From an uncultured Candidatus Saccharibacteria bacterium (lineage in GTDB: Bacteria; Patescibacteriota; Saccharimonadia; Saccharimonadales; Saccharimonadaceae), in the NCBI GenBank assembly GCA_948435375.1, contig CAOJGQ010000003.1, positions 1 through 62,107 of the forward strand: a DNA stretch of 62,107 nt, written 5' to 3'. How positions within the stretch are numbered: the stretch's first letter is position 1; each line of letters starts with the position of its first letter. Made by a program: the position numbers and the translations under genes. This document shows, piece by piece, positions 18,699-20,783 of this stretch. The notes under the pieces were generated by a model. It was not told where the DNA came from. It searched no databases and saw only the letters and a list, made by a program, of their open reading frames with translations.

Positions 18699-18971
18699 AT
18701 GTCGCACGTCAAAGCAGGCGGTACCGCCAAAAATATCCACAATAATGCAGGCCAAAGGCTCGGCGTCAAGCGCTTTGGTGGTCAAAAAGTTCGCAATGGC
18801 GAAGTTTTGGTGCGCCAAACAGGCGCTACGAAGATTGCTGGCCCAGGGACTTATATGAGCCGCAATTTTACGATTCACGCCGCAAAAGATGGAGTAGTGA
18901 CCTTCGTGAAGACGAAAAAGACCCACTTTTCTGGTCGCAGTGTGCCACGAGTGCGAGTGGAAGTGCGCTAA
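18699..18971 (+). CDS. rpmA: 50S ribosomal protein L27
   Basis: Ribosomal protein whose N-terminus reaches the peptidyl-transferase centre. The core QRLGVKRFGGQKV and GEVLVRQTG is diagnostic; 90 aa is normal. The N-terminus (MSHVKAGG) begins at the second residue with no Firmicute-type cleavable extension. No Shine-Dalgarno is seen; the ATG is one base after the stop of the methyltransferase, so re-initiation is likely. rplU is not next to it, unlike in most bacteria. Confidence 0.95.
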   Translation: MSHVKAGGTAKNIHNNAGQRLGVKRFGGQKVRNGEVLVRQTGATKIAGPGTYMSRNFTIHAAKDGVVTFVKTKKTHFSGRSVPRVRVEVR

Positions 18972-18988
18972 GAGGGTCTGATGGCTGG

Positions 18989-19022
18989 CGTCTGGCAGCG
19001 TATGAGGATACGCTAGCCAGAT
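18989..19022 (+). other. Hairpin downstream of rpmA
   Basis: CTGGCAGCGTAT and ATACGCTAGCCAG form a stem of about 11 bp with a small internal loop, ahead of the true terminator. It could stabilise the 3' end. Confidence 0.5.
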
Positions 19023-19045
19023 AAGAGTATAAGTTCATAAAAGCA

Positions 19046-19090
19046 TAGCTCGACGAGAAGGTTTCTGGTCGAGCTATTTTATTTTGGCCT
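19046..19090 (+). terminator. rpmA terminator
   Basis: TAGCTCGAC and GTCGAGCTA form a 9-bp stem, followed by TTTTATTTT. Confidence 0.85.
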
Positions 19091-19126
19091 AATAATGAAA
19101 GAGGCCCAGCTTCGAAAAGCTAGGCC
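19090..19126 (-). terminator. Terminator of the large RNA
   Basis: GGCCTAGCTT-TTCG-AAGCTGGGCC hairpin, then CTCTTTCATTATT on the minus strand. Confidence 0.7.
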
Positions 19127-19673
19127 ATACTGGGTAGTCCTGCGCAGGACTCGATGGGTTAAAATTTCCGTTGCACCATTTAGTGCGCTGCGCCCCATCT
19201 GGCGCGTTCAAATCCGCCGCGGGGCCGAGCCCTATAGACACTTAGGTCACGCCGACACGGATCAAATGAGGCAGAAGCCTCAGGGATTAACCTCAAGGGT
19301 CGAATCCTGGTGGGGTTTGACCCCGAATGTGCGTATCTTTGCAGCACGTCTGACAGTAACGCCTTACGACACCAGCTGCGCCCGCACGGTGGACATCGCC
19401 ACCTTGGCGCGATCCATACCGCCAACCCGTTACGTCGGTTGAACCACGTTTGTCATCAAGTTTTCTGCCGACTAGACTTTCGGTAGCAAAACTTCGCATT
19501 AACGCCCCCGTTTTTTGAACGTGTTACCACAGTTCATGCGTTTTCTGCTACTAGAGTGGACCGATTGTCCGTGGACTCTAGCTTGATGACGTGCCTCAGG
19601 CACAAATCTGCGACCATGATCACGCGGACCTTCTCCGCTAAGCAGATGATACCTACTCGATCATGCTGAGGAC
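19090..19673 (-). ncRNA. Large structured RNA of about 580 nt, family not identified
   Basis: A consensus promoter (19680-19708) and a hairpin plus U-rich tail (19090-19126) frame a transcript with no convincing ORF. It is packed with stems, read on the minus strand: CATGATC/GATCATG enclosing GCGGA/TCCGC near the 5' end; GTGCC-TGA-GGCAC; CTAGAGT/ACTCTAG enclosing GGAC/GTCC; GTAGC, AAAAC, GCAT pairing with ATGC, GTTTT, GCTAC around a GTAA tetraloop hairpin; ATCGC/GCGAT; GGGGTCAAACCCC; TGAGG/CCTCA; and AGTCCTGCGCAGGACT. Size and complexity recall ornate RNAs such as OLE, ROOL or GOLLD, but I cannot match it to any of them. RNase P, tmRNA and SRP RNA signatures are not found. Its GC content is clearly higher than that of the flanking spacers. 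Confidence 0.75.
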
Positions 19674-19679
19674 ACTACC

Positions 19680-19708
19680 ATTGTAGCACATGGAACTGAA
19701 ATTGTCAA
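19680..19708 (-). promoter_or_regulatory. Promoter of the large RNA
   Basis: TTGACA, 17 bp, TACAAT: one of the closest matches to the sigma-70-type consensus in the window. Confidence 0.9.
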
Positions 19709-19796
19709 TAGTTTTTTCATATTTTGCTAGAAAATGTGGACTTTTAGGTAAATTATGGTTTTTAGTTAGCAAAAATCCCTAAATAGCATAAAAGTA

Positions 19797-19825
19797 TTGA
19801 CTTCGTTCCTAATCTGTGATACAAT
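19797..19825 (+). promoter_or_regulatory. Promoter of the leader and orphan gene 20060-20647
   Basis: TTGACT, 17 bp, TACAAT. It diverges from the large-RNA promoter about 90 bp away. Confidence 0.88.
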
Positions 19826-19831
19826 GGTGGT

Positions 19832-20059
19832 GTGAGGTGAAAAAACCTCGTGCACGTTACCATCTTGCTAAACCTTCTCGACTAGAAGGTTGTCGTGGAT
19901 TTTGTTCATATCTAAGCCATGATTTTGACCCTTAATCAAGGGTTTTGTTTACGAATTAGTAAACAAATTTACAAGTAGCTTGTAAATTTTGGCGGATATG
20001 AGCAATGACACGACAACAAAATAGGAGACCCGGCAAGAGCCGGGGGAGGAGGTAGAATT
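19832..20059 (+). promoter_or_regulatory. Structured 5' leader, possible cis-regulatory RNA
   Basis: About 228 nt between promoter and start codon. Local hairpins GAGGT/ACCTC (19834-19849) and AACCTTCT/AGAAGGTT (about 19870-19890) are followed by a long-range stem: TTGTCGTG (19890-19897) with CACGACAA (20009-20016), then TCATATC (19906-19912) with GATATGA (19995-20001). This encloses three hairpins (about 19928-19943, 19947-19964, 19965-19989). A last hairpin CCCGGC/GCCGGG (20029-20044) sits against GGAGGAGG. No known riboswitch class was recognised. Confidence 0.6.
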
Positions 20060-20647
20060 ATGTTACAAGAAAATGTGAAGCTGGTAAACTTTGAGGCGCG
20101 AAAGGATATAGGCGCTCCCTGTGGGATTGAGGTTATGGTCGAGCATACAGAAACGACGACCTTGGAGGAAGATCTTACCGCGATAGCGACCGATGCCTAT
20201 ATTGATGACCGAGAAGGTCATCGCACGCCGAGAAAGGGCAAGATCAAGGAAGTCTTGTCTGGCGGCACGGAGTGGAAGTTGACCGGCTTCAGAATCTCAC
20301 CGTCATATAAGGGTGGGGAGCTTAAACTGCTATTTGAAAGTACTCGTCGGAAGGATGAGTTCGTGATTGAACTCTGGGCGGCCAATACTAAACTACAGCC
20401 CAGCTTCGCGCTGTGTATTGATTTGCCTATGCTCGTTGACCCGATACGGCGCAATATTGTGGCAGCCGAGGAATTCACGTTCCGGCCAGAGTGGCACGAA
20501 GGGCGTAACGTCCTGACGATGTATCGTGATGGTGATAGCGGAGTAAAATATTATCCGTACTATTGCAAGGGTGATACGTTCGACGAGTGCTACGTCGTCA
20601 AGGAGGTGTTACGGCCACTGAAAAATACAAGAAAGTATGAAATTTAG
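20060..20647 (+). CDS. Orphan 195-aa protein behind a long leader
   Basis: No family recognised. Soluble, mixed alpha/beta, no signal peptide. A beta-rich middle (about residues 70-130) includes FRISPSYKGGELKLLFEST. GGAGGAGG lies 8 nt before the ATG, giving a strong ribosome site. It is monocistronic, with its own promoter and terminator. Confidence 0.8.
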   Translation: MLQENVKLVNFEARKDIGAPCGIEVMVEHTETTTLEEDLTAIATDAYIDDREGHRTPRKGKIKEVLSGGTEWKLTGFRISPSYKGGELKLLFESTRRKDEFVIELWAANTKLQPSFALCIDLPMLVDPIRRNIVAAEEFTFRPEWHEGRNVLTMYRDGDSGVKYYPYYCKGDTFDECYVVKEVLRPLKNTRKYEI

Positions 20648-20694
20648 CGCGCGGGATGACTTTTGGCGTATGATGATTTTAGCAAGATGGAGGA

Positions 20695-20720
20695 GACTGC
20701 GGTTTAGCCGCGGTCTTTTT
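20695..20720 (+). terminator. Terminator of the orphan gene
   Basis: GACTGCGG-TTTAG-CCGCGGTC hairpin followed by TTTTT. Confidence 0.88.
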
Positions 20721-20783
20721 CATGGATTTTGAAAAATGGCTGATTCCCTGCCTTTCTGATTCCTCTTGTGGTATACTGGGAGT

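Follow-up and report, generated by a model that had tools for sequence, protein, structure and literature searches.

A candidate stand-alone noncoding RNA gene beside a divergent ORFan in a putative accessory cassette of a Saccharibacteria genome

The stretch of DNA analysed here (the window; 62,107 nt) constitutes contig C3 of a 909-kb Candidatus Saccharibacteria genome assembled in 30 contigs. Between rpmA and an ORF for a 195-aa protein lies an intergenic region of 1088 nt, the longest of the window, and downstream of that ORF a PfkB/aldolase-type gene, so named from its own sequence, starts near 20783. A first-pass annotation had placed in the intergenic region an unassigned structured RNA of about 580 nt with its own promoter and terminator, and had read it as either a highly diverged essential RNA or a new class of ornate RNA. 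The features of the locus, namely a candidate noncoding RNA (ncRNA) on the minus strand and a divergently promoted 195-aa gene with a long leader, are collected in Table 1.

Table 1. Features of the interval from rpmA to the end of the 195-aa gene's transcript, in window coordinates
Feature	Position	Strand	Evidence or content
rpmA	18699-18971	+	Pfam L27 match
Candidate noncoding RNA, about 583 nt	19090..19672	-	Non-coding in all frames; GC content; fold z-score; Rfam-negative
Terminator-like hairpin of the ncRNA	19103..19126	-	GGCCUAGCUU-UUCG-AAGCUGGGCC; U-tail UCUUUCAUU weak
3' domain of the ncRNA	19145..19309	-	Closed by CAGGAUUCGA/UCGAGUCCUG; pairs with p about 0.6; single-sequence prediction
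Middle multibranch domain of the ncRNA	19452..19590	-	Closed by GUCAUCAAG/CUUGAUGAC; holds the GUAA-tetraloop compound stem; predicted
5' domain of the ncRNA	19616..19664	-	AUGAUC/GAUCAU enclosing two hairpins; pair probabilities, single-sequence prediction
Loop region of the 5' domain	19635-19628	-	GAGAAGGU; pair probabilities, single-sequence prediction
ncRNA promoter	19680..19710	-	Sigma-70-type, extended -10: TATTGACA-17-TACAAT, TG ahead of the -10
Divergent promoter of the 195-aa gene	19797..19825	+	TTGACT-17-TACAAT
Leader of the 195-aa gene, 228 nt	19832..20059	+	-91.5 kcal/mol, z -9.65
5' strand of the 13-bp clamp	19860..19872	+	Perfect CCAUCUUGCUAAA/UUUAGCAAGAUGG helix linking leader and 3'UTR; predicted
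P1	19872-19879	+	ACCUUCUC, in a helix with GGAGGAGGU of the Shine-Dalgarno region, about 20045-20053; predicted
195-aa ORFan gene	20060..20647	+	A single frame scores as coding-like throughout
3' strand of the 13-bp clamp	20678..20690	+	Directly 5' of the gene's terminator hairpin

Upstream of the candidate ncRNA (19672-19090), the minus strand carries TTGACA-17-TACAAT at 19708-19680. The first-pass call of this promoter proved correct: it is an exact copy of the genome's own strong promoter class, matching without a mismatch the string TATTGACN13TGTGNTACAATGG, of which 87 copies (up to 3 mismatches) occur genome-wide as against 0 for a reversed-pattern control. By BLAST, the same promoter segment is found in other family genomes 5' of unrelated genes. 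Because the match to the 87-copy string is exact and the control yielded none, we infer that 19672-19090 is transcribed, on strong evidence albeit from sequence alone; the stretch has a promoter of its own, as befits a stand-alone bacterial noncoding RNA gene. The string can also serve as a ready promoter map for this Saccharibacterium lineage.

Such a gene should also be devoid of protein-coding sequence, and this is what was found. Codon-usage scores are non-coding in six of six frames (the best is -0.125, compared with +0.09 to +0.46 for real genes), and they remain so in 120-nt windows except for one marginal value of 0.09. The longest ORFs under table 11, one of 115 aa on the plus strand and one of 81 aa on the minus strand, have no Pfam matches. 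That either of them represents an overlooked protein gene is very improbable: the ORFs exist, but the codon scores, the empty Pfam search and scans with back-translated patterns, which recovered no relative, all speak against it. The earlier statement that the region lacks a convincing ORF therefore holds, as does its description as GC-rich, with a GC content of 0.537 vs 0.40 in the window's other intergenic regions.

The 583-nt RNA is predicted to fold with an MFE z-score of -3.48 (100 shuffles, 1 of which was as stable) or -4.15 (20 shuffles). Since 1 to 3 of the 54 control stretches of 583 nt taken from the window match or beat these values, the excess of folding is real and significant, but moderate rather than extreme. 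These controls, together with the lack of conservation anywhere in the searches described below, would suit a functionless GC-rich spacer, transcribed or not, whose folding lies within the genome's range. Against this reading, which we consider quite unlikely, an exact strong promoter and a terminator-like hairpin bracket the GC-rich stretch.

According to the MFE fold and pair probabilities, all of them single-sequence predictions, the RNA would form the 5', middle and 3' domains listed in Table 1. In the middle domain, a compound stem is predicted to combine UAGCAGAA/UUUUGCUA with CGCAU/AUGCG and to carry a GUAA tetraloop on GAAC-U-GUG/CAC-GUUC, so that the nested stems of the first-pass annotation, including the compound stem at this tetraloop hairpin, are recovered at the level of a single-sequence fold. 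Of the terminator described there, the hairpin is recovered, with a U-tail (UCUUUCAUU) that is weak; the terminator hairpin of rpmA, at about 19080-19045 just past that of the ncRNA, may act in both directions. An internal duplication had also been suggested from the motif GCAGAAAAC, which does occur twice, 80 nt apart. An equal or longer repeat arises in 103 of 300 dinucleotide shuffles, and the repeat is therefore best ascribed to chance, leaving a duplication without evidence.

At gathering scores, only tRNAs were matched by Rfam in the whole window. Infernal was also run as the first-pass annotation had proposed, with cmscan, all 4227 Rfam families and E up to 10 around the ncRNA locus, and returned three chance matches, none of them credible; near-matches to ncS025, MIR6224, RT-6, MIR530 and sroD scored far under the gathering level. 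SRP and 6S RNA were likewise unmatched at the locus, as were ROOL, GOLLD, OLE and HEARO in the same 4227-family search. For tmRNA (RF00023) and RNase P RNA (RF00010, class A), identity was judged by a covariance model match and the expectation of one gene per genome. The locus matches neither model, and the genome's own copies lie on contig C9, the tmRNA at C9:15882-16238 and the RNase P RNA at C9:20308-20761 (234 bits). The ncRNA is thus not a diverged stand-in for a missing copy of either, and as regards these two RNAs the proposal of a highly diverged essential RNA fails, the more so as the locus looks accessory. As an aside, this RNase P RNA match is 454 nt long; among the relatives listed the length is about 330-380 nt, and the difference suggests an insert.

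Attempts to gather homologues, a further step proposed in the first-pass annotation, came back empty. No nucleotide homologue of the ncRNA was detected in 174 genomes of the genus (its own included), in 295 of the family or in 380 of the phylum, nor among phages or plasmids, in searches that would overlook relatives conserving structure alone. The sole nucleotide matches of the ncRNA or the cassette in relatives are promoter segments and chance similarities: in family genomes, cassette matches are confined to promoter segments, and BLAST matches to genus genomes at query positions 265-297 of the ncRNA fall mostly in one orthologous protein gene and are attributed to chance. Back-translated patterns revealed no relative in IMG/VR (three frames) or among 84,980 prokaryote species (one frame), and exact 17-18-mer matches in IMG/VR (L133-L142) were dismissed as chance because similarity ends with the pattern. 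Across the genus, a covariance model built from the middle domain of this one sequence (R1) matches only itself. With no homologue there is no covariation, and with one member known a new class of ornate RNA is a mere candidate. A search of the literature on Saccharibacteria transcripts yielded nothing usable.

These searches bear also on the idea that the ncRNA is a large ornate RNA of a phage or mobile-element type, forming a homo-oligomeric cage like ROOL or GOLLD and kept in one host. Its size, predicted multidomain fold, GNRA-type loop and accessory distribution would all fit. Rfam, the phage records and IMG/VR provide no relative, however, and the site has neither phage genes nor a tRNA island; we rate this idea as improbable.

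Comparison of gene order with relatives, on which the accessory-cassette reading rests, shows how variable the site is. At six loci of relatives (L023, L025, L045, L047, L050 and L051) the site is empty, with the PfkB/aldolase-type gene no more than about 50-75 nt downstream of rpmA. Here, 1.7 kb separates the two genes and holds the ncRNA and the divergent 195-aa gene, and in L027 the site is occupied by a different ORF, of 226 aa, with the same kind of promoter. The rpmA-PfkB site (18972-20770 in the window) is therefore variable, as it is empty in several relatives and filled by another ORF in one. The ncRNA looks accessory, given that its locus is missing from all the other genus genomes (174 including its own). 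Neither an insertion-sequence nor an integrase signature was detected. We take the ncRNA and the ORFan to form one unit.

Neither Pfam, PHROGs, NCBIfam, PADLOC nor PDB has a match to the 195-aa protein. A search of 394 family genomes gave no significant homologue, and patterns and tblastn run on IMG/VR, GTDB species genomes, phages and plasmids gave none either. A match in genome G029 (E 0.006) contains internal stops and is not credible, and an AlphaFold model built from the one sequence is unusable (pLDDT 33.8). In the mRNA of this gene, the leader is predicted to fold into nested stems that enclose three hairpins and are closed by ACCUUCUC/GGAGGAGGU, and the 13-bp clamp, whose length was equalled in 1 of 500 shuffles, would join the leader to the 3'UTR. 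In the predicted fold of the whole transcript (19832-20720; z -9.98), the clamp and the helix hiding the Shine-Dalgarno sequence stack into one. Because that sequence would be hidden and the mRNA clamped 5' to 3', translation of the ORFan is predicted to be locked until the structure is opened. The folding of this mRNA is more extreme than that of the ncRNA (z of -9.65 for the leader and -9.98 for the transcript, vs about -3.5).

Folded leaders are a recurrent feature of this genome, in which several strong promoters lead to leaders of 150-470 nt and then to ORFs with weak codon scores. Four long leaders (L107, L110, L129 and L147) have a common start, a segment resembling TAAGCTT(G/A)ATAAGGA, and L107, L110 and L129 share in addition the block ACATTAAAACCCAATA.GAAAGTTGT, with no Rfam match; the four possibly represent an undescribed family of leader RNAs. 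A boxA-like antitermination motif in leaders was judged by eye and is not established. Membership of the ncRNA in the L107/L110/L129 family, with its TAAGCTT start and ACATTAAAACCC block, was rejected, as no similarity emerged by BLAST, nhmmer or model R1. Separately, at L116 (C1:72400 region, minus strand), the 200 nt past a promoter have the strongest folding observed (z -8.7 to -10.9), and no clear same-strand gene lies close downstream.

The leader-ORFan arrangement raises the prospect that the ncRNA is itself a remnant of such a module, in which the reading frame has decayed to leave a functionless transcribed leader and a pseudogene. The ncRNA does start at the same class of promoter as these modules. 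Yet a coding trace is absent from its 120-nt windows apart from the marginal one, its 3' half is predicted to be folded as well, and it shares no sequence similarity with the other leaders. A remnant thus appears unlikely, though with a small but appreciable chance of being the right answer.

The reading that we favour, and to which we would give slightly better than an even chance, is that of a stand-alone, strongly promoted ncRNA gene of about 580 nt in a species-specific accessory cassette, with a divergent ORFan, at the rpmA-PfkB site. It draws on the promoter, the non-coding character and folding of the stretch, its position in a long GC-rich intergenic region, the terminator hairpins, the lack of homologues in the genus, family and phylum samples, the empty sites of relatives and the leader and clamp of the partner mRNA, and it agrees with the first-pass view of a stand-alone structured RNA, for which promoter, putative terminator, absent coding and excess folding all argue. 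In short, 19672-19090 probably represents a genuine orphan RNA gene, accessory and specific to its species. This assessment covers the identity of the ncRNA and not its mechanism.

As for mechanism, it is enticing to speculate that the ncRNA regulates the partner mRNA, and this is our leading guess, albeit a doubtful one. In this scenario ACCUUCUC, the strand masking the partner's Shine-Dalgarno sequence, would be bound by the 5'-domain loop GAGAAGGU, and this pairing would free the ribosome site and switch on translation of the 195-aa ORFan; the remainder of the ncRNA would act as a scaffold. The two strands show an 8-nt complementary match. Seven complementarities of at least 8 nt exist between the ncRNA and the partner transcript, vs about 8 expected by chance from their lengths, and as this is chance level the guess is held at its low rating. 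Equally tentative is the broader proposal of a two-gene accessory unit, in which an undescribed large structured RNA either controls or assembles with the divergent ORFan whose mRNA is locked.

To our knowledge, large RNAs that belong to no known family are rare in bacteria, and in the ultra-small CPR bacteria they are hardly charted. If the ncRNA is transcribed, genomes of less than 1 Mb too would keep species-specific large RNAs. The succession of one strong promoter class, long folded leaders and ORFans further suggests that a large share of accessory-gene regulation in these bacteria may lie with RNA leaders.

Among known systems, the hok-type mRNAs of type I toxin-antitoxin systems are end-clamped, and the partner mRNA, though not the ncRNA, resembles them in a predicted 5'-3' fold-back that would shut the mRNA and cover its ribosome site. 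It differs in encoding a 195-aa protein rather than a small peptide toxin, and the ncRNA is divergent from the 195-aa gene instead of being an overlapping antisense RNA. The ncRNA, for its part, is of the size class of ROOL, GOLLD, OLE and HEARO and like them intergenic and noncoding, with a multidomain fold that is here predicted. Its differences from this group are that it has no tRNA island or phage genes alongside and comes without an Rfam match, homologues or covariation. ROOL and GOLLD are also accessory, being found in phages and prophages, and homo-oligomeric RNA assembly has been demonstrated for ROOL, GOLLD and OLE (PMC12286853). Finally, the motifs among the GC-rich intergenic structured RNA candidates of the comparative pipelines (PMC8632094) rest on comparative alignments, whereas the ncRNA at 19672-19090 rests on one sequence; what it has in common with those candidates is a long G+C-enriched intergenic region with a folded candidate transcript.
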